From contig JAJPIA010000058.1 in the NCBI GenBank assembly GCA_021324975.1, positions 51,939 to 115,938 on the forward strand: 64,000 bases of DNA, written 5' to 3'. This document shows positions 30,750 through 57,736 of this stretch, one piece after another. Below the pieces are notes generated by a model. The model was not told the origin of the DNA. It worked only from the letters and a program-made list of their open reading frames with translations, and ran no database searches. Position 1 is the stretch's first letter. Every line of letters starts with the position of its first letter. This DNA is from Bacillota bacterium (GTDB lineage Bacteria > Sysuimicrobiota > Sysuimicrobiia > Sysuimicrobiales > Segetimicrobiaceae). Made by a program: the position numbers and the translations under genes.

Positions 30750-31688
30750 TCATGCATATCGTACCCTTGGATCCACCGCGGCGTAGGCGATGTCGACGAG
30801 CAGGTTGGTGAGGACGAAGGTGAGGGCCAGCAATAGAACGGCGCCCTGGACGACCGGGAAGTCGCGCCCGAGGATGGCGTCCACGAGCAAGCGGCCCATC
30901 CCCGGCAGGGAGAAGATGCTCTCGGTGACGACGGCGCCGCTGAGGAGAAATCCGAACTGGAGCCCCACGATCGTGATGACGGGCAGCAGGGCGTTCCGGA
31001 AGGCGTGCCGGATGACCACGCCCGGCTCCCAGAGGCCCTTGGCGCGGGCGGTGCGGACGTAGTCCTGGTGAAGGGTTTCGAGCATCGACGAGCGCGTCAG
31101 CCGTGCGAGGAGGGCGACCGCCCCGCTGCTGACCGTCACGGCCGGCAGCGCGATGTGCCGCCATCCGTCGACCGTCGTCAGGGGCGCGTAGCCGCTCAGC
31201 GGAAACCACCGCAGCGAGATGGCAAAGATCCACAGCAAGATGAGCCCGACCGCGAACACGGGCATGGCCGAGGCGGCGAGGACGGCGCAGATCGTTGCCA
31301 GGTCCAGCGGAGAATTCCGGTTGTAGGCGGCGACGATCCCCACCGGCACGCTCACCGCGACGGTAAGCGCGACCCCCACGAGCGCGAGGGCGATCGTGAC
31401 GGGAAGCGTCGTGAGCAGTTGGCCGAGGACGGGCTCGTGCGACCGCACCGACCGCCCCAAGTCTCCGTGGATCAGGCGGAGCACGTATTTGCCGTACTGG
31501 ACGTAGAGCGGCTGGTCCAACCCCAAGGTGTGCTCGACGTCGCGCACCACGTCGGGCGGCGCGTCGGGGCCGGCCACGACCAGCGCCGGGTTGCCGGGCG
31601 TGAGGTGCAGGATGAGAAACACGAGCACCGACACACCGAACACGACCGGCACCATGAGCAGCAGCCGTCCCGTGACATACGAGGCCAT
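30750..31688 (-). CDS. Dipeptide/oligopeptide ABC transporter permease (DppB-like)
   Basis: HLTPGNPA...LGLDQPLYVQYGKYV; DYVRTARAKGL. Confidence 0.93.
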   Translation of the reverse strand: MASYVTGRLLLMVPVVFGVSVLVFLILHLTPGNPALVVAGPDAPPDVVRDVEHTLGLDQPLYVQYGKYVLRLIHGDLGRSVRSHEPVLGQLLTTLPVTIALALVGVALTVAVSVPVGIVAAYNRNSPLDLATICAVLAASAMPVFAVGLILLWIFAISLRWFPLSGYAPLTTVDGWRHIALPAVTVSSGAVALLARLTRSSMLETLHQDYVRTARAKGLWEPGVVIRHAFRNALLPVITIVGLQFGFLLSGAVVTESIFSLPGMGRLLVDAILGRDFPVVQGAVLLLALTFVLTNLLVDIAYAAVDPRVRYA

Positions 31689-31700
31689 GCCTCGGCGGCG

Positions 31701-33287
31701 CTACTTCAATGTCAGATCGAGCATCTTGTACAGGACGTTCGCGTGCATCTGAGGCACGGTCAGGTTCGGCGACGCGATCACGACCCGCTTTTCGTGCACG
31801 AGGGGCACCCAGATCGCGTTCTGCACGATGATCTGCTGCAGCTTTTGATAGGCGTCCATCCGTTCCCGGTCATTCGTGCTTGACCGGCTGAGCTCGAGCA
31901 GGCGGTCCGTCTCCGGGTCCGCCCAATCGAACCGGTTGGGCGCCGGCCGCTGCTTGCTGTGGAAGTAGAAGTACAGGACGTCCGGCGTCACGTAACGGAC
32001 GTTGATGAAGAACATATCGTGCTGGCCCGCGCGGAGCGCGGCGAGAAACGCCGTCCACTCCATGCGCTGCGGCCGGACGGCCACACCGACACCCCGGAGC
32101 TCGGACTGCACGAGGTTCACGAGCTGTTCCACGCCCGGGCCGGGCGAATAGAGAAACAGCAGCGACAGCGGTTGCCCGTTCTTCTGCCGCGGTTGGCCCG
32201 GGGCGGGCTGGGTCCACCCGTCTTCGTCTAGGATGCGCTTCGCCTTGCTCGGGTCGTAGCGGTAGCCGATCTTCTCCGCGCCCGGCCACCACCCCGGGGT
32301 GCCCGGCGCGAGCGGGCCCAGCGCCTCGGTCGCGAGGCCGTAGTACGCGCCCTGGATGATCTCCTGACGGTTGATCCCGTCGTTGATCGCCTGACGGACC
32401 CTGAGGTCGTCGAGCGGCTTGTGCCCGAGCTTGAACCCGATGAACGCGGTGTTGAGATCCGCATACCGGATCACGTGCACGCGGCGGTCCTTGTCCAGCG
32501 CCGGCACCTGCTCGCCCGGAATCGACTCGGCGAACTGGGCGTCTCCGACCTGCACCGACGCGACGCGCGGCGTGTCCTCAACGATCGTGTGAAACACTAC
32601 GGTGCCAAACGGCGCCGGTCCATGGTTCTTGTACAGCGGTGGTCCCCATGTGTAAGCGGGGTTGCGGGTCACCACCAACCGGTCGTTCCGGACCCATTCT
32701 TTGAGGACGTAGGGGCCGGTCCCATCCACCTTGCCGGCGCCGGTGCCGTAGTCGTCCCCCGCGCGGTTCACGGCGTCGGCATTCAGGATGCTGGCCGAGT
32801 ACCCGGCGAGGTTGATGAGGAGGATCGACAGGGGTTCTTTCAGGTGCAAGACCACGGTCGCGGGGTTCGGCGCATCGACGCTCTCCACCGGGCTGATGTT
32901 GAACGCCGTCGGCGATCCTTTCAGGGTGCGCCAGCGATCCATCGTGGACTTGACGTCGGCCGACGCGAGGGGCTTGCCCGACGCGAACCGCACGCCTTGG
33001 CGTAGCGTGAACGTGTAGGTCTTGCCGTCCGGGGAGATGGTCCATTTCTCCGCGAGCCCCGGCTTGACGCCGTTCGCATAGTCGAGCGAGAGCAGCGTAT
33101 CGTAGAGCAGGTAGTCCACTTCCGCCGACGACACGGCCGTGGTCTTCTCGGGATCGAGCGTCTCAGTCTCTTCCGGCCGCGCAAACGTGAACGTCCCGTT
33201 CGCCGCGGGGGCGCCCGCCGCGAGCCGCGGGACGGCGACCGCGAAGGCCGCGAGCGCGAGCACACACCACCGCACGATCCGAGTCAT
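31701..33287 (-). CDS. Peptide/nickel ABC transporter substrate-binding protein (family 5)
   Basis: Signal peptide; TLDPEKTTAVSSAEVDYLLYDTLLS; KPGLAEKWTISPDGKTYTFTLRQGVRFASG. Confidence 0.93.
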   Translation of the reverse strand: MTRIVRWCVLALAAFAVAVPRLAAGAPAANGTFTFARPEETETLDPEKTTAVSSAEVDYLLYDTLLSLDYANGVKPGLAEKWTISPDGKTYTFTLRQGVRFASGKPLASADVKSTMDRWRTLKGSPTAFNISPVESVDAPNPATVVLHLKEPLSILLINLAGYSASILNADAVNRAGDDYGTGAGKVDGTGPYVLKEWVRNDRLVVTRNPAYTWGPPLYKNHGPAPFGTVVFHTIVEDTPRVASVQVGDAQFAESIPGEQVPALDKDRRVHVIRYADLNTAFIGFKLGHKPLDDLRVRQAINDGINRQEIIQGAYYGLATEALGPLAPGTPGWWPGAEKIGYRYDPSKAKRILDEDGWTQPAPGQPRQKNGQPLSLLFLYSPGPGVEQLVNLVQSELRGVGVAVRPQRMEWTAFLAALRAGQHDMFFINVRYVTPDVLYFYFHSKQRPAPNRFDWADPETDRLLELSRSSTNDRERMDAYQKLQQIIVQNAIWVPLVHEKRVVIASPNLTVPQMHANVLYKMLDLTLK

Positions 33288-33500
33288 CTAGCGTCTCCTG
33301 AGGAGCCCGAAGGCCGGGTGTGGATGCGTGGCCGCGTATTCGAGCGGCCGTTCGACGCCTCCTGCCGCAGCCGGATCTCGTGCGGATTTCGTTACGCATC
33401 GGCGCCGGGGTGCGCCGCCGTACCAGATCGGCGATCGGCGCCGTCGGTGCGGGTGGATCAGGGGCGAACGTGCGACGTGGCGGCGACCGCGGTGCCGGGC

Positions 33501-34079
33501 TCAGGCGCCCCGCAGCAGCCGGCTCTTGATCTGGGCGAACTCCGCCTCGGTCAGCGCGCCCGCGTCTCTGGCCCGCGCCAGCTCGACCAGCCGGGTTGCG
33601 AGATCCTCGGGAGCATCGGGGTCGCGGATCGCGCGCACCGCCTGCACCCGTCCCGCCACGATCGCCGCGACCCGCTTCATGTCGTCCTTGCGCCGTGCAC
33701 CGAAGGTCACGGCATTTTCATCGGTGTTCAACTTGAAGGAGGTCAGATCCGCGGGTTTCGGCGCCCCCACGGTGATGATCTTCAAGTGGCCGCCCACGGG
33801 CCCCAGCCGCAGGTCCACCGCGGCGATCCGGGAGTAGGAGATCGAGCGGGCCCGTGCGCCGAAGATGCCCGCGCCCGTGATGAAGCCGGCGCGGATGATG
33901 AGGACGCGCCGGTCCGTCACGACGATCGCCTCGCCGGCGGAGGTGCGGACCGCCGCGTCGACGATCTCATCCTCGTGAACGTTGTCTCGCAGCCCACGGC
34001 CCAGGTTCCCCGGCAGCCGCTGCACGAGGTCGGCCGTGGAGCCCGGTGTCGGTGCTTCGGGGTGGTTGTCGACGGACAT
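33501..34079 (-). CDS. bPH-domain/SHOCT-type protein
   Basis: AIVVTDRRVLIIRAGF...SYSRIAAVDLR; C-terminal LARARDAGALTEAEFAQIKSRLL SHOCT-like. Confidence 0.75.
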   Translation of the reverse strand: MSVDNHPEAPTPGSTADLVQRLPGNLGRGLRDNVHEDEIVDAAVRTSAGEAIVVTDRRVLIIRAGFITGAGIFGARARSISYSRIAAVDLRLGPVGGHLKIITVGAPKPADLTSFKLNTDENAVTFGARRKDDMKRVAAIVAGRVQAVRAIRDPDAPEDLATRLVELARARDAGALTEAEFAQIKSRLLRGA

Positions 34080-34098
34080 GGCGCTCAGCGCGGTGAGG

Positions 34099-34911
34099 TC
34101 ACGGTGCGCGGCGCTGGAGGAACGCCGTGACCGGCACAAAGACGATGCCGGCCTTGCGGAACTCCGGCAGCATGTGTTGGATCACGGCCGGCGCCCCCGT
34201 CGCGACGTGGGCCGCGGCCACCACGGATCCCCGCAGCTTGGCCTCGGCGATGAGCGCGCGGACCTGCTCGGCGATGTGGTCCGGCGGGATGTCCAGGTAC
34301 GTCCCGGTCACCACGATCGGCACGCCGAGCTGCCGCGCCACGTCCCGCACGATCGACCGCGGCGTCTCGGGGTTCTCGTTGAACCAGAGCCCGCGCGCCT
34401 TGATCGTGCGCAGCACCACCGTCATCACGCGGCGGTCCGCCGTGGCCCGGGATCCGGCGTGGTTGCTGACGGCGACCACCCCGGGCACGCTGTCCAGATC
34501 GCGCTCCACCACGCGTGCAATCTCCGGGTCCGTCATGCGCACCCAGACCGTGCCCGTCACCGGCCCGAGGTCCCCGGGGTGGTTCGGCTCCAGCGGGAGG
34601 TGGAGCATGGGCGTCAGGCCGCGTGCGGCGGCAGTACGTGCGATCTCCGCGGAGTACCGCATGTTGGGGAAGATCCCTAGGCCGAATGGCTCGTGCATGG
34701 CGTAGATGGGCGCGAGCTCCGCGAGGCTCGCACCCGCGTGGTCAAAGATGAGGGCCACCCGCGGGTGCGCCGTCCCTGACGCGGCTCGCGGGACGAGCAC
34801 GCCGAGGCAGAAGGCGGCGATCAGCGCGAGACGGTGGATCGCGAAGCCACGCCTCGGCCGCCGGCCCGGGAAGGCGGCGTCGCGGCGCGCAGGAACGCGG
34901 GGGGTGCCCAT
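34099..34911 (-). CDS. Divergent polysaccharide deacetylase (YibQ/DUF610-like)
   Basis: Signal peptide; ALIFDHAGASLAELAPIYAMHEPFGLGIFPNMRYSAEIA...MLHLPLEP. Confidence 0.82.
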   Translation of the reverse strand: MGTPRVPARRDAAFPGRRPRRGFAIHRLALIAAFCLGVLVPRAASGTAHPRVALIFDHAGASLAELAPIYAMHEPFGLGIFPNMRYSAEIARTAAARGLTPMLHLPLEPNHPGDLGPVTGTVWVRMTDPEIARVVERDLDSVPGVVAVSNHAGSRATADRRVMTVVLRTIKARGLWFNENPETPRSIVRDVARQLGVPIVVTGTYLDIPPDHIAEQVRALIAEAKLRGSVVAAAHVATGAPAVIQHMLPEFRKAGIVFVPVTAFLQRRAP

Positions 34912-35092
34912 ACGCTCTATACTTCCTCGCCCACGCCGAGTGTCCCTCGAAAAACGCACGTTCCGCGAGACTTTTCGCGTCGTGCGCGCAGGAGTTTGAT
35001 CGTTGCGGAAGTAGAGGGGGACGGACGCGTGTTGTGTGTCCGCCGAGGCGGCGCGCGCACAGCGTACACGACGTCCAGACAGGAGGTGGCAA

Positions 35093-36268
35093 GTGATCGA
35101 AGCTGTACCGCGCCGCGTCGCGGCGCTGGTGGCGGCCTTGATGTGCACGCTGGGCGCCGCGGGCCCCGCGGCGAGGGCCGCGGGCGCGCCGGTCCACACG
35201 GTGCCGGGGATGCCGCCCGTCGTCAACCCGCAGAACATCTACAGCGAGGCCGGACGGGATGATCTGTCGCCCAAGGTCATGCACGACCTGCCGCGTGTTT
35301 ACGTCCCGAACCTTCGCTCGGACGATGTCTACGTGATCGACCCGAACACGTTCAAAGTCGTGGATCGCTTCCCCGTGGGGCGGAGCCCGCAGCACGTGGT
35401 GCCGTCCTGGGACCTCCGTACCTTGTGGGTAACCAACAACGCCGAGGGCCGAACCGACGGCAGCTTGACCCCGATCGACCCGCGCACGGGAAAGCCGGGT
35501 CGCCCGATCGCCGTGGACGATCCCTACAACATGTACTTCACGCCCGACGGCAGGTCGGCGATCGTCGTGGCGGAAGCGCGGGGGCGGCTGGACTTCCGCG
35601 ACCCGCACTCCATGGCCCTCCAGACGTCGCTGCGCGTCCCCGGATGCGCCGGCATCAACCACGCGGACTATTCCATCGACGGACGCTACGCGATCTTCAC
35701 GTGCGAGTTCAACGGGCACATCGCGAAGATCGATGTCGTGCACCGCCGGATCCTCGGCTACATGCGGCTGCTGCCCTACAGCATGCCGCAGGACGTCCGC
35801 ACGGGGCCTGACGGCCGCACCTTCTTCGTCGCCGACATGCAGGCCGACGGCGTCTTTGTGATCGACGGGGACGCCTTCAAGCGCATCGGGTTCATCCCGA
35901 CCGGCGTGGGGGCTCACGGTCTCTATCCCAGTCGCGACGGCACCAAGCTCTACGTTGCGAACCGCGGCTCCCACGAGGTGCATGGCCCGCGTGGGAGCCC
36001 CGCCGGGAGCGTATCCGTGATCGACTTCGCGACCCGCCGGGTTCTCGCGCGCTGGCCGATCCCCGGCGGTGGGAGCCCGGACATGGGCAATGTCAGCGCC
36101 GACGGGCGCTACCTGTGGTTGTCGGGCCGGTTCGACGACGTGGTCTATGCCATCGATACCGAGACCGGGCGGGTGCGCAAGATCCCGGTGGGAGCGGAGC
36201 CGCACGGGCTGACGGTATGGCCGCAGCCGGGCCGCTACTCGCTCGGCCACACCGGCATTCTGCGGTGA
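35093..36268 (+). CDS. YVTN-family beta-propeller protein, secreted
   Basis: Repeats RVYVPNLRSDDVYVIDPNTFKVVDRFPVGRSPQHV...; RBS AGGAGG before GTG 35093. Confidence 0.88.
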   Translation: MIEAVPRRVAALVAALMCTLGAAGPAARAAGAPVHTVPGMPPVVNPQNIYSEAGRDDLSPKVMHDLPRVYVPNLRSDDVYVIDPNTFKVVDRFPVGRSPQHVVPSWDLRTLWVTNNAEGRTDGSLTPIDPRTGKPGRPIAVDDPYNMYFTPDGRSAIVVAEARGRLDFRDPHSMALQTSLRVPGCAGINHADYSIDGRYAIFTCEFNGHIAKIDVVHRRILGYMRLLPYSMPQDVRTGPDGRTFFVADMQADGVFVIDGDAFKRIGFIPTGVGAHGLYPSRDGTKLYVANRGSHEVHGPRGSPAGSVSVIDFATRRVLARWPIPGGGSPDMGNVSADGRYLWLSGRFDDVVYAIDTETGRVRKIPVGAEPHGLTVWPQPGRYSLGHTGILR

Positions 36269-36337
36269 CCCCGGCTCGGCGCGGTGGATGATGCCGCTTG
36301 GCCCACCCGTGGCGGGGCCGGGAGGTGCAGCGCGGCT

Positions 36338-39355: not shown

Positions 39356-39431
39356 GCGCCCGTAGCTCAGGGGATAGAGCGGCTGCCTTCTAAGCAGCGG
39401 GTCGGGGGTTCGAATCCCTCCGGGCGCGCCA
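39356..39431 (+). tRNA. tRNA-Arg (anticodon TCT), encoded CCA
   Basis: GCGCCCG acceptor pairs with CGGGCGC; GCTGC-CTTCTAA-GCAGC anticodon arm; GGTTCGAATCC T arm; CCA end. Confidence 0.95.
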
Positions 39432-40662
39432 ATATTTCCAAGCCCTCTAGCGATGCGGACGGTGCCCGGCCGACCTTCTTGCTAATGCCCTGCAAATGCC
39501 CGCCAAGGAGACGTGTCGCCAGCGTCTCGGACGCCTCTTGTAACATCGGCGCCAATACATGCGCGTACACGTTCATTGTCGTACTGATGTTAGCATGTCC
39601 AAGGTTCTCCGCAACCACTTTCACCGGCGTACCAAACCGCAGCGCCAACGTCGCGTAGACGTGCCGCAGGTCGTGGAAGCGGATGCGCGGGACGCCCGCC
39701 GTCTTCGCCAGTGTGGGCAATTCGCGCTGACTGAGATTGTTCGCGTGCAGCGGTAGCCCATTGCCCTGGGAGAGGACGAGGTCGTGGTCTGTGTAACGCG
39801 GCCCGATCAACTTCCGAAACTCGGCCTGCAGCCCGCGGAGGTGTTCGAGTTCGCGCACGAGGATGCGGGGCAGGGAGATGGTGCGCCGGCTCCGCGCCGT
39901 CTTCGTCTCCGCGAACCGCACCACACCACGGGACCGTCGCAGCGTGTGCTGGACCGACAGGCGGCCCGCGTCGAGGTCCACGTCCCGCCAGCGCAGCGCG
40001 AGGAGTTCGCCCTGCCGCATCCCCGTGAGGATCGCGGTAAGGTACACGGCATAGTTCCGCGACAATCGCCGCGCGGTCGCGAGGAACACGCGCACCTGTT
40101 CTTCGTCCCAGACCCGCATTGGACGGTACGAGAGGCGTGGCGCTTTAACGCCCGCCAGCGGGGATCTCGTCAGCATCCCCAGCGTCACCGCCTGTCGCAG
40201 CGCCGTCCGTAAAACCCTAAATGACTGGTGAACGGTCGCCGCGGACAGGGGGCGGGGGACAGGCTTCGCGTTCTTCCTGTGGGGCGGGATATAGGTCTTG
40301 TCGCACATGGCCCGCAACCACGCCTCGACCGTGCCGCTGGTCAGCTTCGCCAACGGAACCGATCCTAGATCGGGCCGGAGGTGGATGCGGACCACGGTAT
40401 CATAGACCCGCTTCGTGGTCGGCCGCACGCGCAGCGACGCGGTCTCCAGCCAGCGGGTCAGGTACTCGGAGAAGGTCTGCCGCGCCGGCGCCAGGGCACC
40501 GCCTTTCGCGAGGACCTGGATCACGTGGTCCTGCGCTTCCCGCCGCGTGTCGAACGTCGTCCACTTGTACCGATCGCGGCCCGCTTCGGTCTTCCCGAGA
40601 TAGACGACCGCGGCCCAGCGATGGCCGCGCTTTCGCACGTGCCCCCTTGGCATCAGCTGCAC
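39367..40662 (-). CDS. Tyrosine recombinase/integrase
   Basis: TGMRQGELLALRWRDVDL (R), HDLRHVYATLA (HxxR), LGHANISTTMNVYAH (GH..Y); frame continues through att core. Confidence 0.95.
   Translation of the reverse strand: MQLMPRGHVRKRGHRWAAVVYLGKTEAGRDRYKWTTFDTRREAQDHVIQVLAKGGALAPARQTFSEYLTRWLETASLRVRPTTKRVYDTVVRIHLRPDLGSVPLAKLTSGTVEAWLRAMCDKTYIPPHRKNAKPVPRPLSAATVHQSFRVLRTALRQAVTLGMLTRSPLAGVKAPRLSYRPMRVWDEEQVRVFLATARRLSRNYAVYLTAILTGMRQGELLALRWRDVDLDAGRLSVQHTLRRSRGVVRFAETKTARSRRTISLPRILVRELEHLRGLQAEFRKLIGPRYTDHDLVLSQGNGLPLHANNLSQRELPTLAKTAGVPRIRFHDLRHVYATLALRFGTPVKVVAENLGHANISTTMNVYAHVLAPMLQEASETLATRLLGGHLQGISKKVGRAPSASLEGLEILARPEGFEPPTRCLEGSRSIP
39381..39431 (+). repeat. attL core (51 bp)
   Basis: GGCTGCCTTCTAAGCAGCGGGTCGGGGGTTCGAATCCCTCCGGGCGCGCCA identical to 57686-57736. 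Confidence 0.93.
39479..39502. repeat. Candidate integrase arm-type site pair, left end
   Basis: TTGCTAATGCCCTGCAAATGCCCG, 21/24 identical to 57556-57579. Confidence 0.65.
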
Positions 40663-45080: not shown

Positions 45081-45413
45081 CTACTTAGCGACGACCCCCC
45101 TTTCCGACAGGCGAATGTCCCGATCTCGCAGTTTCTCTCCGATCCACTCTTCGAATTGCCGGCGTGGGATAAGGTAGGCAGACCCAATTCGTCGACTTGG
45201 TATCTCGCCGAGTCTTAGATATCGGTACACTGCAGGTAGTGACAGGCCGAGGACAGCTGCCACTTGTGGGGGACGTAGGAATAGAGAAGGATCCGCCAGG
45301 CGTCCCAGCAGGACGTCGATTTGGTCGATTCGATTGAGGTCTTTTAACTGGTGATCTCTGAGGGCCGGGCCTCTAACAGAAAAGCGGCCCGCAACCCCCG
45401 TCGATGCCGGCAT
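45081..45413 (-). CDS. Excisionase/MerR-type HTH (HTH_17) DNA-binding protein
   Basis: LRPPQVAAVLGLSLPAVYRYLRLGEIPSRRIGSAYLIPRRQFEEWI. Confidence 0.8.
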   Translation of the reverse strand: MPASTGVAGRFSVRGPALRDHQLKDLNRIDQIDVLLGRLADPSLFLRPPQVAAVLGLSLPAVYRYLRLGEIPSRRIGSAYLIPRRQFEEWIGEKLRDRDIRLSERGVVAK

Positions 45414-45909
45414 ACAGCACCTCCAGGTGGCTTGCGGACCGCACCGTGACCAAGGGCGCTTCGGAGAGATCTCCGTCGACGGGACTAGAACCCGTCGCAC
45501 CCCGACCCGTTACGCTGTGGGTACCGTTACACGATTTTACGCGGACCGGTAGATGTAGTTTCCGAGGCGGATGCTACCACAAGCGGAAACAGATTGCAAA
45601 TCAGTTATACGTAGCGGTAGGCCGTCCGACGATCTAACCCGGCCGCATCGATTGCCTGTTCTTTGGTTAACTTCGTGTCAGCGCTGGCACGAAGTTGGTC
45701 GTTCCGGATTCCTTGGACCGGTTCCAGTTCCCGAACAAGTTCCCCGATCCGCCGCATCGCGCGGAGCTTGATCTCGGCCACCCAGCCACACGTCCGCGAG
45801 ATCCGACCTGGCCGCGCTACTGACTTGTTGACGCAGCGCGTTCAGCGGCGTCGATCGCTGGGTCGAGCCTTCAATTGCCGCCCTAAAACGCCATTACTGG
45901 GACAGGCTC

Positions 45910-47066: not shown

Positions 47067-47110
47067 ACGGGCAAGGTAGCTTGACAATACGGGCAAGGAA
47101 GCACTATGCT
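47067..47110 (+). promoter_or_regulatory. Sigma70-type promoter with overlapping direct-repeat operator
   Basis: TTGACA 47081-47086, 18-nt spacer, TATGCT 47105-47110; ACGGGCAAGG(T/A)AGC at 47067 and 47089, 22-bp period. Confidence 0.65.
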
Positions 47111-47153
47111 GCAACAGGGACCATTCCGCAACACCGAACAGGGGGGACCGCGA

Positions 47154-47807
47154 ATGAAGGTCGCGATCTATGCCAGAGTCAGCACCGTAGACAAGGATCA
47201 GAACCCCGACACACAGCTGCTACCGCTGCGGGAGTACGCCGCGGCGCAGGGCTGGCAGGTTGTGGGCGAGTTCGTGGACCACGCCAGCGCGGCGAACCTC
47301 CGCAAGCGGCCCGCGTGGGCTGAGGTCATGCAGCTGGCGTCCCATCGTAAGGTCGCGGTGATCCTGGTGTGGAAGCTGGATCGCGCCTTCCGGTCGGTGA
47401 TGCACGCCACGGGCACGATCGCGAACCTGCGGCGCTGGGGCGTCGGCCTGCGATCGCTGACCGAATCGTGGCTGGACACCTCGAACACGTCGCCGGCCAG
47501 CGACCTCGTGTTCCATGTGCTGACCGCGGTGGCCGAGTTCGAACGGTCGCTGATCGGTGAGAGAGTCAGGGCGGGACTCGCCAGGGCGCGCAAGCAGGGG
47601 AAGACGCTGGGGCGGCGCGCGGCGCTGAATGGCGACCTCGACGCGTTGATCCCGGCGCTACAGGCGGGACAGCTGTCGATGCGGGACGTGGCGAAGCGGT
47701 TGGGCGTCCATGTGTCCACCGTGTCGCGGACGGTGGCGAAGCGGGACCTGTTGCGGAAACCCTATCGAATCGGGGCCTCGCCAGCCCGTATCCAGTACGG
47801 TGTTTGA
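47154..47807 (+). CDS. Serine recombinase (resolvase/invertase family)
   Basis: KVAIYARVSTVDKDQNPDTQLLPLREYAAAQGW; FEFERSLIGERVRAGLARARKQGKTLGRR-like block; C-terminal HTH MRDVAKRLGVHVSTVSRTV. Confidence 0.93.
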   Translation: MKVAIYARVSTVDKDQNPDTQLLPLREYAAAQGWQVVGEFVDHASAANLRKRPAWAEVMQLASHRKVAVILVWKLDRAFRSVMHATGTIANLRRWGVGLRSLTESWLDTSNTSPASDLVFHVLTAVAEFERSLIGERVRAGLARARKQGKTLGRRAALNGDLDALIPALQAGQLSMRDVAKRLGVHVSTVSRTVAKRDLLRKPYRIGASPARIQYGV

Positions 47808-49169: not shown

Positions 49170-49940
49170 CTAGGGACTGTCGGGCGTCTGCGAGACGTGT
49201 AGCTGCCACACCCAAGCGCCATTCCACCGCTGCTGCTTTGTGGAGGCGATGCCCAGGCTGCGGCGGACCTGTTGGACGCTGTTCCAGTTGAACCCGTTGT
49301 CCGATGCCCACTGCATCATGTGGGTAGCGGGTTTCGGTCCCGCCAGGAGTTCGGCAAACAGGGCGCGCTGAATGGCGCGGTACTTCGTGGGCTTCGGGTG
49401 GGTACGGCGCCATTGGGCTTTGCGGCGAACCTGGGCCGCGTGGTTGCGGGCGATCAGCTGGTCGATTCTGGGATCGTGGCGGACCGAGACCGAGATCCGC
49501 GAGGGCAGGTCCTCGGGGATTGTGGCAACATCCGCCAGGGTGGTCACGATGCGCTGGAGGGCGACGTGTTGGGGCAGCGTCGCGTCCGCCCGCGCCGGCC
49601 ACGATTTCGGGACGCCTACCACGCCCGAGGGGGGAGATACCGGGGTCGAGGCCCGAAGCGGAGATTCCCGCGGCAGCGGCCGCGGATTTGCCCCAATGTG
49701 GGCATCGTGGAGGCGGTCCCTGGCGGCGCGTACGGCCTGTTCGTAACTGTAGTGATCCGCCGAGGGGACCCCGTGCCCCGCAGGCGCCGGTGGTCCGCCA
49801 TAGTACCGGGACCGCTGCCAGGCGCAGGTCGAACACTCGCCACCATACGATGGCCCGCCGCAGCGCGGGCAGCGCGCCGTCAGACCAGTCACCGAGATCC
49901 CCACTCGGCGCATCATCGGTTTGACGTCAAATGCCCTCAC
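49170..49940 (-). CDS. Zinc-ribbon / C-terminal winged-helix-like protein, putative replication-associated
   Basis: CPRCGGPSYGGECSTC ribbon; C-terminal FNWNSVQQVRRSLGIASTKQQRWNGAWVWQL. Confidence 0.5.
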   Translation of the reverse strand: MRAFDVKPMMRRVGISVTGLTARCPRCGGPSYGGECSTCAWQRSRYYGGPPAPAGHGVPSADHYSYEQAVRAARDRLHDAHIGANPRPLPRESPLRASTPVSPPSGVVGVPKSWPARADATLPQHVALQRIVTTLADVATIPEDLPSRISVSVRHDPRIDQLIARNHAAQVRRKAQWRRTHPKPTKYRAIQRALFAELLAGPKPATHMMQWASDNGFNWNSVQQVRRSLGIASTKQQRWNGAWVWQLHVSQTPDSP

Positions 49941-50749
49941 GTCTTGATGATGTAGTTCGTGACCACGTAGGGCTGCAGGTTGTTGTGGGCAGCCCCTCCG
50001 CCCGTGTTGTTGATCGTTAGCGTAAACTCGGTGTTGTTGCCGATGCTACCGCCAGGCAGGCTGGAACCCCCAGACACGTTCGGGCCGAATGGCAAGCCAT
50101 TACTCCACGAATGGCTGCTAGAGTGATTGTGGCTGGGCATCTCGTTCGTGGTCAGCGTGTGCTGCGCTTCGCCCCCGGTCGCCCCCATCGCGTACGTCCC
50201 CGATTGCACGCCGAGGGGCACGGTGCCCTGGAGGTTCGGGACGTTGAACGTCGTACTGCCGTCGCCCGCCCCATAGGTCGTGCCAATGGCCGAGAATAGC
50301 GCCGCATACGTCGTGCGCGACACCGCGGACCCGTCGCAATTCAGCCACCCACTCGGGGCGGTGGACGCCCCATAGGGGATGATCGCACCTACGGGAACCG
50401 TCCCGCTGACACCGCTTGTCTGAATCGCCAACAGCGGATTGCCCCAGGTGATCGCCTGTCCTACGGTCCCCGTCACGGGCGCCTGATACACGAACAGGGC
50501 CGTAGGACTCGTCGTGAGCCGAATCGCGGTCGCCCCGCCTGGCGCCACGTAGTTGAACACGCTGCCCGTCAATGTGGCATTGACCGTGAACCACGCTTCC
50601 TCCGTCGTGCTGACAGGGTGCAGGTGATACACGTGCCCTGCCGCGGCGTCCAGCAGGGTCGCGTTCACCTGGGATTCGGTGGGGATCGCGGTCCCCGCCT
50701 CGTCGCTGCCTGATAACTGGAGTAATCCGTAGGACGTCTTATTACTCAT
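49937..50749 (-). CDS. Phage tail collar domain protein
   Basis: VPVGAIIPYGASTAPSGWLNCDGSAVSRTTYAALFSAIGTTYGAGDGSTTFNVPNLQG...EMPSHNHSSSHSW. Confidence 0.88.
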   Translation of the reverse strand: MSNKTSYGLLQLSGSDEAGTAIPTESQVNATLLDAAAGHVYHLHPVSTTEEAWFTVNATLTGSVFNYVAPGGATAIRLTTSPTALFVYQAPVTGTVGQAITWGNPLLAIQTSGVSGTVPVGAIIPYGASTAPSGWLNCDGSAVSRTTYAALFSAIGTTYGAGDGSTTFNVPNLQGTVPLGVQSGTYAMGATGGEAQHTLTTNEMPSHNHSSSHSWSNGLPFGPNVSGGSSLPGGSIGNNTEFTLTINNTGGGAAHNNLQPYVVTNYIIKT

Positions 50750-50751
50750 CG

Positions 50752-53700
50752 CTAGGGCTTGAGGTAGTTCGTGAGGTCGAACGGCGACCCAGGGGCGGGA
50801 GTCGGTCGCAAGTGCCCGCGCCTCGTCGTCCCTTCGAGTTTGAGGCCGTACTGCTGGACAATCCGCTGGGCGAGGTTCGCGCGTTCGGCCGCGGTCGAGT
50901 GGCCCTCGTCCTGCAAGGCTTCCTCGGCCCAGCGGTACAGCTGATCGTTGAACTTGGTCGCCAGCACGGTCGCCTGCCGGATCGCCTGGGGCGTGCCCGC
51001 GTCCACGAGGGTCTTGATCTTGTTCTGGTACGGGGCCCGGCGCTGCACGTTGAACATGAGATCGCCCACGTTGTACTCGGCGGGCGTCTTCTTCGGCTGC
51101 GAGACCACGGGCGACATGAGGACCTGCGGCACCTGCCGCGCGACCCCGCCCACGGTGAGACCGCCGCTGAGGCCCTTGGACGGGTTGTAGCCCGACGCCA
51201 GTTGCCGCAGCGACAGCGGCGTCGTGCCCATGCCGAAGTATTGGGCGGCCCGGGCGACCTTGTCCCACCAGTCCACGCTGGGGTCCTCGATCTGCTGCTG
51301 GTTCTGCGCCACGTTCAACGCGCCGCGGATCGCGGGCGCGGGCGTGAACATCGCTTCCGCCCCGTACCGCAGCGGGAGTTCGCCAGTTGCGACGCGGCCA
51401 ATGTCGCCGGCGATCCGAAACGGGCCGGGCCCGCCGACCCTGGCGCGGGGATTGCCCAGCATGTGCTGGACGGCGTTCTGGAGGAATGAGTGCGCGGGAA
51501 CGGTGCCCGTCAGCACAATCCCCAACAGCGCGAGTTTGTCCGCGGCTTCGAGGCGCTGCGCGGCCGTCATGCCGGGGCCGAGAAGCCCCTTCACCGCCTG
51601 CCCGTACGACTTCAGGACGCCGTAGTGATAGGGCGCGAAGATCGTGAGGCCGCGGCCCCGCAGGATGTTGGCGATCTGCGCGTCCCCCAGCACGTGCGCG
51701 GGGATCTGATACTCGGGGAAGAACCGGCCCGTCTCCGCGATCGCGGCGTCAATCGAGGACGTGATCGTGGATTGTGCCGGCCGCTTCCCTGCCAGCACGC
51801 CCGCTTCGCCTTCGAGTTGCCTCTCGAACACCCGCTGCATGTAGGCCATGTCGTTACTCAGCCACGTCACCTGATGCGAGAACCACAGGGGGGACGACAG
51901 AATCCGCTTGACCGTCGTGCCGAGGTGCGCCGCCATGCCCGCGAGAGTTTGGGGTTCGGCCAGCAGCTGCTTCCTCGCGAGATCCAGTAGCGCCCCGTGG
52001 GTTTCGAGATCGCCCGCGCGCATGAGGGCCGCCCCGCGCCCCAGGAGGTCCTGATAGTCCTTGTTCATGTGGATCGCGGCGTTGAACGCGCGCTGGGACG
52101 AGATCGCGAGGCGCTTATAGGCCGCGGGATTGACCCAGCGGGTGAGACCGCGATCCCACAGCCAGAACCCCGCCACGTTCGGCGTATGCACGAGTGGGTT
52201 CACGAACCCCACTTGGATCGACGCGTTCATCGCGCCCGCCAGCGCGTTCACGATCGCGCTGCCGCTGCGCGTCTTCGGCATGAACGCATCGAACACGTCG
52301 GCCACCTTGGGATCCATCAGGTAGCCCTGGAACTGCGGCATCCGCGGCGCCCGCCACGTCTTCGGATCGAACCCCGGCACGAGGAACCGATTGGGGTCGG
52401 TCGGCTTGACCGCGTACGTAGCGAACTCGGGCGTGGACGTGACATGCCGCAGAAACTCGTCCGCGTTGACCGCCTTCTGGGTTTCCAGGTGGTCGTACAA
52501 GATCGACACCGCGGCGTTCTTGAGATAGCGCGTGCCGGTGTGGGCTTCGATCTGCGCGGTGGTCGGCTGCGTGAACCGATACATCCGGCCGTCCTTGGCC
52601 CGGAACACCGTGTGCGTGAGATCGTCAGGGTTGTAGCGCGCCCCGACCTCGTCCGCGCTACGCTGAAGGCGGACCAGGGTGTCCTGCAGCGTCGTGAGGC
52701 GATCCCGTAGCGCCCCCTCGTCCTTGGTCGCCGCCTCGTTCCACAGCTGGTGCAGCCGCCCCACCGCGTCCAGGTCCGTGCGGATCTCGGGCGTCACCTC
52801 GGGCGCGACCCGGCTCGTGTCGATCAGTTCCTGGGCGAGGTCTTTCACCTTGGCGAGATAGGCGTTCGCCCGCACCCGAGACGGCAGAACGCGCCCCGTG
52901 GCGGCCTGCTGCAGCGCCCGAATCCCGACCTGCAGGTTCGCGATCCGCCGCTTGATCGGCGCGAGGTCCTGCTGCTGAAACTCGGCCAGCGTCTTCCGCC
53001 GCGCCACGGTCCCCAGGAATTCGGGCTTGCCGTTCGTCCACCGCGTGACGCGCCCGTCCGCAACCGAGATCACGGACGATTTCCCGGTCTCCATGTCCAC
53101 CGCGGCCTGGTACGTCCTGCGGGACCGCAGCGACCCGGGGACGCGCCGCAGGAGACCGCCGACCCGAGGGGCGCGGTCGCTGCCCGCCATCGCCTCGTCC
53201 ACCCAGCCGCCCTTGCCGAGGGCGAACCGCCGCATGTACCCAATCGACGACACGGGGCGGAACTCGCGCGGGAGACTCGCCTTCATCGCTTCGGTGGCCT
53301 GGCGGATCGGGAACAGCGTATCGGCGATCGCCTGCTGGCGGGGCGTCAGCGCGATCCCCGAATCCTCGCCGGCGTGGTAGACGGCCTCGAAGTCCTTCGG
53401 GTCCATCCGCGTCAGTTGCCGCGCCGTCTGCCGTAGCGACACGTCGAGGGCGCGTTCCTTGCCGCGCAGCTGCCGCAGCTGCGTCGAGAGATCGCCCACG
53501 AACGTCTGCCGTTCCGACGCCTGCGCGAGATGCCGCGCGATCGGCTGGAGATTGATTGCGCCCGTCTCGTCGTCCGCGGCCCGCTGCGCCGCAGTGATCG
53601 CCTGCTGAATCGCCGGCCGCACGCCCGGGCGCGTTGTCGAATCGGCCACGAACGGCGGAGTGCCGGCGGCTTTCACGTTATGGGCGGCCTGGGCGCGCGC

Positions 53701-54639
53701 GTCGTCCGCCAGTTGCGCTGCCTGATCGGTCTGAACGGCCTGCGCCACTGCGGCCTGATCGGCCTTCTGCTGCTTGTCCGCGGCCATGCGCTTGACCGTG
53801 GGCAAGTACGCCGACCGTGCCACGGCCTCCGCCGCCTGGACGTCGTGGGTGCGCGCCACGTCTTCTGTGAGGTGGGCGGCGACCTGGGCGGGGTGGGGGA
53901 TTACCTGTTCCGCGGCCGTGCGCGCAACGTCACTCGCGGCCTGGGCGGCCGTCCTGCGGGTCGCCGCGGTGACACCCTCCGACAGGACGCGGGAGGCCAT
54001 AGCCTTCACGCCCGCAGCACCGAGGCCCAGCACGGGGAGAATCTGCGCCAGGTTCATGCCCGCGCTGATCAGCGTGGAAACGTCTTGGGCGGCCTGCGGG
54101 TTCCGCTGAATCCAGTCGCCCACCTGCTTGATCCCTGGCGCGTTCGCGGCCTCCCACTGCGCCCACCGCACAGGGGCGCTGCCCGACAACCGGCGCGCGA
54201 TGTTGCCGACGTCGCGGATCACGGGGGCGTTCGCGGCGGCGCGCTTCGCGCCCGCGTACACGTCTCCGAGTTGCTTCACGCCCGGGAGATTCGCAAGGGT
54301 GTTCTCGGTCGCTTGGACGTTCTGCGCGACACTGTGCAGCGAGACGGGCGATCCCGTCGCCCCGCTTTCATACGCCCGACTCGCCGCTTGTTCCGCGGCC
54401 ACCGCGGCGGCGGCCCGCTGCGGTCCGGTGGCGCCCGATCCTTTGGCCTGCTGTGCCGCTTGTTGGGCGGCACTAGCCGATCCTGCGGCGCGTGCGGGGG
54501 CTGTGACGTCATGTGGCGTAGGCTGTGCCGCCGGAATCAGCCACGAGGGCGAAGGTGCGGGCGCCGGCGGCCGCGGCCTCGTGCCGTTCGTCGGTATCGG
54601 GGTCGCGGGGATCAACCAGTCGGGTGTTTGATTACTCAC
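50752..54639 (-). CDS. Very large (1295 aa) uncharacterised protein, putative virion/ejection-associated
   Basis: Ala-rich N-terminus with WLIPA duplication, long helical regions; in block with tail-collar gene. Confidence 0.6.
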   Translation of the reverse strand: MSNQTPDWLIPATPIPTNGTRPRPPAPAPSPSWLIPAAQPTPHDVTAPARAAGSASAAQQAAQQAKGSGATGPQRAAAAVAAEQAASRAYESGATGSPVSLHSVAQNVQATENTLANLPGVKQLGDVYAGAKRAAANAPVIRDVGNIARRLSGSAPVRWAQWEAANAPGIKQVGDWIQRNPQAAQDVSTLISAGMNLAQILPVLGLGAAGVKAMASRVLSEGVTAATRRTAAQAASDVARTAAEQVIPHPAQVAAHLTEDVARTHDVQAAEAVARSAYLPTVKRMAADKQQKADQAAVAQAVQTDQAAQLADDARAQAAHNVKAAGTPPFVADSTTRPGVRPAIQQAITAAQRAADDETGAINLQPIARHLAQASERQTFVGDLSTQLRQLRGKERALDVSLRQTARQLTRMDPKDFEAVYHAGEDSGIALTPRQQAIADTLFPIRQATEAMKASLPREFRPVSSIGYMRRFALGKGGWVDEAMAGSDRAPRVGGLLRRVPGSLRSRRTYQAAVDMETGKSSVISVADGRVTRWTNGKPEFLGTVARRKTLAEFQQQDLAPIKRRIANLQVGIRALQQAATGRVLPSRVRANAYLAKVKDLAQELIDTSRVAPEVTPEIRTDLDAVGRLHQLWNEAATKDEGALRDRLTTLQDTLVRLQRSADEVGARYNPDDLTHTVFRAKDGRMYRFTQPTTAQIEAHTGTRYLKNAAVSILYDHLETQKAVNADEFLRHVTSTPEFATYAVKPTDPNRFLVPGFDPKTWRAPRMPQFQGYLMDPKVADVFDAFMPKTRSGSAIVNALAGAMNASIQVGFVNPLVHTPNVAGFWLWDRGLTRWVNPAAYKRLAISSQRAFNAAIHMNKDYQDLLGRGAALMRAGDLETHGALLDLARKQLLAEPQTLAGMAAHLGTTVKRILSSPLWFSHQVTWLSNDMAYMQRVFERQLEGEAGVLAGKRPAQSTITSSIDAAIAETGRFFPEYQIPAHVLGDAQIANILRGRGLTIFAPYHYGVLKSYGQAVKGLLGPGMTAAQRLEAADKLALLGIVLTGTVPAHSFLQNAVQHMLGNPRARVGGPGPFRIAGDIGRVATGELPLRYGAEAMFTPAPAIRGALNVAQNQQQIEDPSVDWWDKVARAAQYFGMGTTPLSLRQLASGYNPSKGLSGGLTVGGVARQVPQVLMSPVVSQPKKTPAEYNVGDLMFNVQRRAPYQNKIKTLVDAGTPQAIRQATVLATKFNDQLYRWAEEALQDEGHSTAAERANLAQRIVQQYGLKLEGTTRRGHLRPTPAPGSPFDLTNYLKP

Positions 54640-56453
54640 GGGTGCAGCACGGCGCCCGTAGCGCCATCGTACAGCGTGCCGTTAGGGGCCCGGTACACGT
54701 CGTGCCCCGTGCGCGAGTCGCGGCCTGCGAAGGTCGCGTTGGACGGGATCGTGGCGCTTCGCGCGCCGGCGGGCGTCACCGACCCGTGCGACGACGGGAC
54801 GGGGGCGGGCGTGTGCCCACCGCCACCGCCGTGTCCACCCGTCCTCGACCGCGTCTGCCCCGCCGTGGCCCCGATCCCGTACTTGTCATAGATCGCCTGC
54901 AGGCGCTTCAAGAGGTTGGGCAGCTTCGGGTCGGTCGGGTCCAGCGCGTCGATCTGCTTCTGCAGCGTTGAGATCGCGACGCGGGCGTTCTCGGGAACCC
55001 GTCCTGCCGCACCCGAGGCGCGAGGGGCGCCACCTGTCGTCCGCGTCGATCGCTGCGGCTGCGGCCTCACACCGGGAACGAAACTCTCGGGCATCGTCGC
55101 CAGGATCTCGTCACCCTGCTGCTGCGTGATCTCGCCCCGCTGGACCGCGTCATGGACGGCCTTCTGCGCCTTCGCAAAGAGGGCATGCGCCCGCTGCTGG
55201 GCCGCCTGGGCGTGCGCCGCATCGGGATAGTCGCGCTTCAGGAGATCGTTCGCCGTCGTGACGAGGCGGTTCACGCCAGTGTTGATCCGCGTATACGCCT
55301 GCGTCTGCGCGGCCCGCTGCGCTGTCTGCTGTTCCGCATCGAGGCGCGCCCGTTCATAGGGCGTGAGGGGCTGCGGTGCGACAATCCCGTTCGCCCGTAG
55401 CCACGGATCGATCTTGGCGGCATCGGGGAACCCGTTGGCATCAAGGAATTGCGGCGGCACGCGCTGGCCCGCCAGTTGGCGCACGTTGGGATTGTTGGAC
55501 GTTGCCATCCACGGGTAACTCGCCCCGAACGTCCCCGGTGGGTAATAGGCGGGCCCTGGGGGCGGCGCCTGGGTCGCGGTGCCCACGGCCGGTGGTGTCC
55601 CGCTGGGAGTCGGCGCACCCGTCGGCGCCGCAGACGGTGCCGTGCCGCCCGTGGGTGACGGTGTGCCCGCAAGCCACGGGTACGGTGTGCGGGTGTCCCC
55701 AGGCTGCCCACTCGGCCCAACCGGAGGCGAGGCGGGTGCGGGGGATGATGGTGCGCCGCCCACGTCACCGCCGGCGTAGTACACAGCTGCCCTCCATCCC
55801 GTGCCGAGGGTGGCGTTGACCTGATCGACAGGTGAGTCGAGAGGAAACCCCGCCGCTTGCAGGGCCGCGAGAACCTTGGGATTGTTCCCGTAGATTTGCC
55901 GAAACGTCTCCTGCCCAAGAGGCGTCTGCGGCAGAATGTACTGCGTCGTCGTTGTCTGCGGCCCCTCGAACGTCACGCCGGGCATGGTCGTGGCGAGTGC
56001 CTGCTGCGCGGACGGCGTGCCCTGGGGCGCTGCTGGGGCAGACGGCGTGGCCGGCGTCATCGGCTGCGGCTGCGCGGTCGCTTGAGGCGACTGCGGCGTG
56101 AAGGGTTGCGGCTGCACCTGACCGGGTGCTGGTGACGCCGTTGCGGTTGGCGACCCGAATGCGCCACCACTCGCGGGCGCCTGAATGTTCAATCCGGACA
56201 CGTTGGCACCCAACCCGCCCGCGGGCGCGTTCGGGTTCCCGGTCGTCACCTGCTGCGTGGGCAGCTTGAAGTGATAATACGGGCTGAAGAAGCCCGCCTT
56301 GTCGAACACGGACTGAATCTGTCCCGCAATCGCCTGCCGCTGCGTGTCCGTAAGGTTGGGGTTTTGCAGCATCCCCTCGAGAAGGTTGATCTGCGCCTGC
56401 GATCGACGATTCACGAGATCCATCCACGCGCCCAGCAAGCCGCCGAGTGGCAT
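54636..56453 (-). CDS. Pro/Ala/Gln-rich 605-aa uncharacterised protein, putative structural
   Basis: MPLGGLLGAWMDLVNRRSQAQINLLEGMLQNPNLTDTQRQAIAGQIQSVFDKAG...; overlaps 1295-aa gene by 4 nt. Confidence 0.55.
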   Translation of the reverse strand: MPLGGLLGAWMDLVNRRSQAQINLLEGMLQNPNLTDTQRQAIAGQIQSVFDKAGFFSPYYHFKLPTQQVTTGNPNAPAGGLGANVSGLNIQAPASGGAFGSPTATASPAPGQVQPQPFTPQSPQATAQPQPMTPATPSAPAAPQGTPSAQQALATTMPGVTFEGPQTTTTQYILPQTPLGQETFRQIYGNNPKVLAALQAAGFPLDSPVDQVNATLGTGWRAAVYYAGGDVGGAPSSPAPASPPVGPSGQPGDTRTPYPWLAGTPSPTGGTAPSAAPTGAPTPSGTPPAVGTATQAPPPGPAYYPPGTFGASYPWMATSNNPNVRQLAGQRVPPQFLDANGFPDAAKIDPWLRANGIVAPQPLTPYERARLDAEQQTAQRAAQTQAYTRINTGVNRLVTTANDLLKRDYPDAAHAQAAQQRAHALFAKAQKAVHDAVQRGEITQQQGDEILATMPESFVPGVRPQPQRSTRTTGGAPRASGAAGRVPENARVAISTLQKQIDALDPTDPKLPNLLKRLQAIYDKYGIGATAGQTRSRTGGHGGGGGHTPAPVPSSHGSVTPAGARSATIPSNATFAGRDSRTGHDVYRAPNGTLYDGATGAVLHP

Positions 56454-56465
56454 CGCCCTCTCCCC

Positions 56466-56909
56466 CTAGTGCGTCCCTTGGTGCTTGCCGACACTCGGGG
56501 CGGGACCCGCCGCGGCCGGTTCGTCCACGCAGGACCCCTCGGCCGGCGGTGCCGTCTCGGGATCTGGCGCCGCAGGGGGGTCGGGTTCAATCGGCGCGTT
56601 CGCCATCGCGACAATGCCGAGAGGATCGTACATCGCGAAGCGGACGCGATTGTTGCGGGCTTGCCGCACCGATTCGTCTACCACCGCCCGGTTCTCGGCC
56701 GCGTATTCGGCCCACTCCGCCGGCGTCCACGCCACGGTGACCATCTCGAAGCCGTGGCGCACATCGGCCGGGATCGCACAGCCGTAGCAAACCCAAAACA
56801 CGAACCCGGGGCGCCACCAGTAGGTGCGGCTGCCGCACAGGGGACAGGGGCCCAGCGACTCGTGGGGCGGGCGCATCGTCGCGTTCGGATCGGCCAGGAA
56901 GTCCGTCAT
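56466..56909 (-). CDS. Zinc-ribbon hypothetical protein
   Basis: LGPCPLCGSRTYWWRPGFVFWVCYGCAIP. Confidence 0.55.
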   Translation of the reverse strand: MTDFLADPNATMRPPHESLGPCPLCGSRTYWWRPGFVFWVCYGCAIPADVRHGFEMVTVAWTPAEWAEYAAENRAVVDESVRQARNNRVRFAMYDPLGIVAMANAPIEPDPPAAPDPETAPPAEGSCVDEPAAAGPAPSVGKHQGTH

Positions 56910-56911
56910 GT

Positions 56912-57514
56912 TCACGTCGGCAGCGCCCCTGGTCCACCGACCTGCGGGCTGCTGACATCGGGCGCGCCGACCTGCCCCTGATTCACGCCGCCACCAGCCT
57001 GCGGTGCGCCACCGCCGCCCATCCCCCCACCGGCCGCACCAGCCGCGGCACCACCGTACGGTCCAAACCCGATCCCCGGTCCACCGACGCCGAAGAGGTA
57101 CGTCGATCCCGTACCCAGCTGTCCAAACGTGTTCCAACCTGACGGCAACGGACGGCCATAGGGATCGTTCTGCGGGAGGCCCTGGCCCGTCCATGCGAAC
57201 CCGCCGCCGTAGGGCGTCCACCCCGTCCCCGGGGCAGGACTCAGCGGCGCCTGCGTGGCTTGGACGGGCGGTGCCGTGGGCGCGGGCACGCCGCTACTGA
57301 CGGGCATGGGCGGAACGGCCGTGGCAAGCTGCGTCGGTGGGCCGACCATGGCCGATGAGGGCGGCGGCGCCGGCGGTGGTGTCATGGGCGCGGTGATCGT
57401 GGACCCCTGAAGACTCCCGAACGCCCCAGGGTTCGCCCCCGCGAACGGGCTGCCTTGCGCCCCGGCACCGCCTCCCAACAGACTGTACAACACCCAGGGG
57501 GAGAGTAGAGACAC
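56912..57514 (-). CDS. Pro/Gly-rich low-complexity hypothetical protein
   Basis: MSLLSPWVLYSLLGGGAGAQGSPFAG...; directly precedes zinc-ribbon gene. Confidence 0.45.
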   Translation of the reverse strand: MSLLSPWVLYSLLGGGAGAQGSPFAGANPGAFGSLQGSTITAPMTPPPAPPPSSAMVGPPTQLATAVPPMPVSSGVPAPTAPPVQATQAPLSPAPGTGWTPYGGGFAWTGQGLPQNDPYGRPLPSGWNTFGQLGTGSTYLFGVGGPGIGFGPYGGAAAGAAGGGMGGGGAPQAGGGVNQGQVGAPDVSSPQVGGPGALPT

Positions 57515-57555
57515 GTCAGTCCACCTGCCTTTTCACGGTGTCGCGGGTGTGGGGC

Positions 57556-57579
57556 TTGCAAATGCGCTGCAAATGCGCG
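57556..57579. repeat. Candidate integrase arm-type site pair, right end
   Basis: TTGCAAATGCGCTGCAAATGCGCG; TGCAAATGC twice at 11-bp period. Confidence 0.65.
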
Positions 57580-57685
57580 GGTGTCGGATGGGCCGTATTT
57601 CGACCCTCAGTCCCACCTAGCGGCTTCGCCGAAGCCTTATTTTTCTGGGGTTTCCGGGGCTTGCGATTTTGCGTGATCTTTGAGG

Positions 57686-57736
57686 GGCTGCCTTCTAAGC
57701 AGCGGGTCGGGGGTTCGAATCCCTCCGGGCGCGCCA
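57686..57736 (+). repeat. attR core (51 bp), displaced tRNA-Arg 3' end
   Basis: Same 51-bp sequence without the 5' half of the tRNA. Confidence 0.93.

Follow-up and report, generated by a model that had tools for sequence, protein, structure and literature searches.

A prophage integrase whose reading frame crosses its own attachment core raises the question of whether the enzyme ends differently in the integrated and the excised state and, if it does, whether the difference works as a switch. We addressed this for an 18.3-kb prophage in a tRNA-Arg(TCT) gene, found in a 64,000-nucleotide stretch of bacterial DNA (the window).

The prophage, its attachment sites, and the integrase

The prophage is bounded by two identical 51-bp cores, attL at 39381–39431 and attR at 57686–57736, which form a direct repeat (51 of 51 positions) starting in the anticodon stem/arm and reaching CCA. 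An extent from the anticodon arm to CCA is usual for a core in the 3' part of a tRNA. ARAGORN places the tRNA-Arg(TCT) on the plus strand at 39356–39431, restored at attL with a 5' part from the host and a 3' part that is phage-borne. In a congeneric genome (G002), a contig (C70) syntenic with the host segment at about 31014–36297 of the window, at 89%, carries the identical 76-nt tRNA with no prophage copy beside it.

The integrase gene (int) faces the tRNA from the minus strand (39367–40662) and encodes 431 aa in the integrated state. Its product (Int) matches the Pfam families Phage_integrase (5e-22) and Phage_int_SAM_3 above the cut-offs and Arm-DNA-bind_4 just below (20.7 bits against 22.3), and it retains R216, H330-x-x-R333, H356, and Y366 in the R..H-x-x-R..H..Y pattern; the catalytic, arm-binding, and SAM-like N-terminal domains of a lambda-like tyrosine integrase are thus found together. 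A domain search also identified an excisionase-like HTH_17 protein on the minus strand (45081–45500).

Tandem pairs of 11-bp repeats lie 48 and 107 bp from the core in equal orientation, one at 39480–39501 (TGCTAATGCCC TGCAAATGCCC) and one in the other arm at 57557–57578 (two copies of TGCAAATGCGC); the exact sequence TGCAAATGC occurs three times in the window, against 0.27 expected. By their pairing, spacing, orientation, and position, the pairs would fit arm-type integrase sites on the lambda model, and the layout in phage Giles is the same. The predicted sites are those of a lambda-like module with a tRNA attB: the core is identical in both copies and restores the tRNA, and arm-type repeats flank it left and right.

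Elsewhere in the prophage, structural-looking genes occupy 49937–57514, among which only a collar-domain protein is recognizable, and a serine resolvase/invertase (47106–47807) lies on the strand opposite to the rest of the prophage, beside a Prim-Pol primase and AAA helicase-like module. The products of these genes include a 1295-aa and a 605-aa protein, neither of which had a family or phage-record match. Searching phage records and viral contigs with these two and the AAA protein gave no useful relatives of the prophage, and we found no close relative with an intact attP. Within the same genome, a second element (L074; contig 64, 20000–38000) carries a related integrase at a tRNA-Arg(CCG), and the two copies of a 48-bp direct repeat are separated by about 10.4 kb; a 22-bp repeat overlaps its int stop and recurs beside the tRNA, and these copies are probably arm sites. 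On contig 104, at about 116400–135800, another related integrase lies by a fragment resembling tRNA-Arg, and 19 kb off there is a tRNA-Arg-like gene; this may be a third tRNA-Arg island.

Two predicted C-termini and the 56-codon tail

Between the catalytic domain, which up to Y366 lies wholly on one side of the core, and the core itself, the Int frame has no in-frame stop. It reads the core as ARPEGFEPPTRCLEGS and, in the integrated state, ends four codons later, after RSIP, at the TGA at 39367–39369. This stop arises because the complement of the conserved tRNA D-arm GCTCA lies in the Int frame, and as GCTCA is conserved, any integrase whose gene runs into an intact tRNA in the same frame would stop there. 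The D-arm is absent from the circle, so the frame runs on to the next chance stop. Joining the left side of attR to the right side of attL through one core, we obtained a reconstructed circle with a continuous Int of 483 aa, of which 56 codons follow the core in the DNA of the left arm of attP (57516–57685 with the stop, minus strand); this tail includes the peptide ASAKPLGGTEGR and ends in KRQVD at a TGA at 57516–57518. Since both cores are identical, the frame is the same whatever the point of strand exchange within them. The original prediction had the integrated frame ending after RSIP at 39367, the attR frame open to 57516, and an in-frame junction giving 56 residues in place of four, and it was accurate in each of these; a crossover that breaks the frame, which would have spoken against it, cannot occur inside the 51 identical base pairs. 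A change of C-terminus on excision is accordingly what the sequence predicts; that this amounts to a switch, as also proposed, is not supported by what follows.

The continuity of the frame across the core is not a coincidence, since any frame entering the core must carry on at its other side. Only the length of the tail is informative, and this length is ordinary: a frame stays open for 56 codons or more with a probability of 0.37 given the prophage's own frequency of stop triplets and 0.45 in dinucleotide shuffles. The tail had also been described as Lys/Arg-rich, and its 14 K/R among 56 residues, against 3 D/E, bear this out as a slight excess: open frames in shuffled sequence contain 9.1 on average and 5.6% of them attain 14. 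The preference for GC at third positions is weaker in the tail than in int (0.68 versus 0.83), and a search for homologues in 43 genomes from the phylum found nothing except the tail itself (best other E 0.016). Of the two repeat pairs, one lies in the 3' end of the extended int frame and the other in the tail, where it reads HLQRICK; because each pair sits in the extended frame, both translate to the peptide HLQ. The constraint seen in the attP DNA is accounted for by its att function, without any function of the protein. A terminator-like hairpin with a T-run lies on the plus strand within the same arm (57622–57645; 1 found, 0.7 expected).

The protein is predicted to be folded to about residue 390 and disordered over 400–431, AlphaFold confidence dropping from about 90 to below 60 past residue 400. 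The core and tail predicted alone gave a pTM of 0.20, and the read-through segment is thus predicted to be disordered. With the fold predicted to finish near residue 390, the C-terminal difference is probably a by-product without a role. A working switch of the Mx8 kind would require more: the 483-residue episomal form would be integration-proficient and touch attP with its basic tail; the 431-residue form would be weaker or altered in specificity, stabilizing the prophage. The change in frame and length is real, the tail is basic and its stop abuts the next start, and a passage in PMC6070905 gives the precedent of Mx8, in which a new int 3' end on integration modifies specificity. Yet the tail is arm-site DNA, open to a length expected by chance, predicted disordered and lacking homologues, the arrangement is not conserved among relatives (below), and neither form, with termini SIP and QVD, shows a degron or ssrA-like end; we regard such a switch as unlikely.

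A single base separates the tail's TGA from the GTG start, preceded by AGGTGG, of the open reading frame that follows (200 aa; 56912–57514, minus strand), a placement like that in translationally coupled genes. One could picture the tRNA as a sensor acting through a stop codon, the D-arm GCTCA ending int early only in the integrated state and the basic 56-residue tail of the circular form aiding integration and coupling int to the next gene, but we consider this very improbable. The extension may instead never be made in quantity, int being silent in the lysogen and only briefly expressed otherwise, so that the frame is open on paper only. Relatives manage without the extension, and simple scans found no promoter-like site at either junction. 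Against this, any complete translation of int must enter the core, as no in-frame stop precedes it, and we think it quite unlikely that the extension is never made in quantity.

Related integrases and the probable loss of a stop codon

From 271 loci we read 224 distinct integrase ends, 58 of which had an antisense tRNA just downstream; removing duplicates and distant tRNAs left 56 integrases. A stop codon ahead of the core in relatives was a result that the original prediction had named as refuting it, and 52 of the 56, including the nearest relative at a tRNA-Arg, do stop before the tRNA. An Mx8-type open frame is therefore not a conserved trait of this integrase group. The four that read in are the window's own, L149 (Zixibacteria), L161 (Dormibacterota), and L086. 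For L149 and L086 the stop is a TGA of the T-loop; since a 3'-tRNA core would also contain it, no change of end, and no switch, is expected in them on excision. L161 alone resembles the window, passing the T-arm and ending at the same D-arm TGA. The real frame runs into the tRNA about a third as often as the two other frames do, at 4/56 against 24/112 (Fisher P 0.027, a guide only, since the sequences are related), and nothing in these 56 sequences suggests selection to keep the frame open.

The nearest tRNA-Arg relative (L085/L057), from the host's family and 54% identical over the last 98 residues (the C-terminal domain), ends GGGCGT-TAG-CGCATGTTAGC, with its stop inside the first arm-type repeat. 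At this site the window has GGGCAT-TTG-CAGGGCATTAGC, the relative's GGGCGT[TAG] aligning on GGGCATTTG. A TAG within the repeat is also present in L104, L091, L067, L129, L138, L236, L175, L178, L127, and L167. Tandem repeats with a period of 9–13 bp occupy the linker in 41 of the 56, and in 12 of these they contain the stop, a slight excess over the 8.7 expected with the stop anywhere in the linker; the overlap of stop and repeat is a description, not a rule. When the relatives' stops were ignored, 23 of 54 frames reached the tRNA and 7 of these passed beyond it, so the outcome in the window needs no selection.

These comparisons point, with fairly high probability, to a sporadic loss of the stop where the 3' end of int and a lambda-like attP overlap; the resulting polymorphism of the C-terminus is Mx8-like and probably neutral. 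In outline, attP, built of arm-type sites, the 51-bp tRNA core, and further arm-type sites, would start inside the 3' end of int, and related integrases end ahead of the core, at times through the TAG of an arm-type repeat (TTAGCA). As the window has TTG where the nearest relative has its stop, translation would carry on across the second repeat and the linker and through the antisense tRNA core. Beyond the core it would meet the TGA opposite the conserved D-arm in the lysogen, giving 431 aa, and in the circle, where that half of the tRNA is missing, the frame would happen to stay open for the 56 codons that give 483 aa. The att sites, the frames, the arm repeats, and the stops of the relatives are read from the DNA itself; we infer that the change went in the direction of stop loss, that the tail is translated, and that it is neutral. 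Some observations sit less easily with stop loss: the tail's TGA is placed as if coupled to the next gene, the tail is somewhat rich in Lys/Arg for its composition, L161 likewise reads to the D-arm TGA, which makes such reading not unique, and the stops within repeats barely exceed expectation.

Where attP starts in the 3' end of an integrase gene, stop loss adds antisense-tRNA peptides (GFEPP...) to the protein, which calls for caution, and database entries of such integrases will show state-dependent C-termini. Arm-type repeats that at times hold the int stop (TTAGCA) tie a DNA-binding site to protein length.

Comparison with known integration systems

The locus had been likened to the SSV-type integrases and to integration-dependent immunity in mycobacteriophages, and neither likeness carries far. 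As in the archaeal SSV-type integrases, the att site lies within int (PMC8371274), but SSV integration divides its gene into Int(N) and Int(C), and the catalytic part falls in Int(C) (PMC8371274), whereas the catalytic domain here stays whole and is not separated from the N-terminal part, as it is in a suicidal integrase. The repressor of phage BPs shares an attP inside the reading frame and a C-terminus that differs between virus and prophage: integration shortens it, with a 33-residue C-terminal difference, and in its viral form it bears a degradation tag (PMC4557955). That gene, however, is a repressor with a tag, and the gene here is an integrase with none, which sets it apart from integration-dependent immunity. 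The integrase of mycobacteriophage Giles (gp29), a related tyrosine integrase of 33% identity, similarly faces a tRNA-derived core with tandem repeat pairs on both sides, but its gene stops ahead of the core and is unchanged by integration.

The better comparison is the Myxococcus phage Mx8. There attP lies inside int and, according to the passage in PMC6070905 (citing Tojo 1996 and Magrini 1999), integration supplies a new int 3' end with modified specificity; the authors of Islander, citing Mx8 and SSV, likewise allow for integrases that extend across attP (PMC4383910). In the reconstructed circle, the int frame of the window also spans the attP core and integration would alter its C-terminus. 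The change was tested in Mx8; here it is read from sequence, the overlap involves only a C-terminal extension that is predicted to be disordered, and relatives lack it. A functional switch is possible, and would be a tRNA-based counterpart to that of Mx8, but the comparative evidence speaks against a conserved one and a regulatory role is unsupported. Judged by its sequence, the module is an ordinary tRNA-targeted integration module that is Mx8-like by anatomy.
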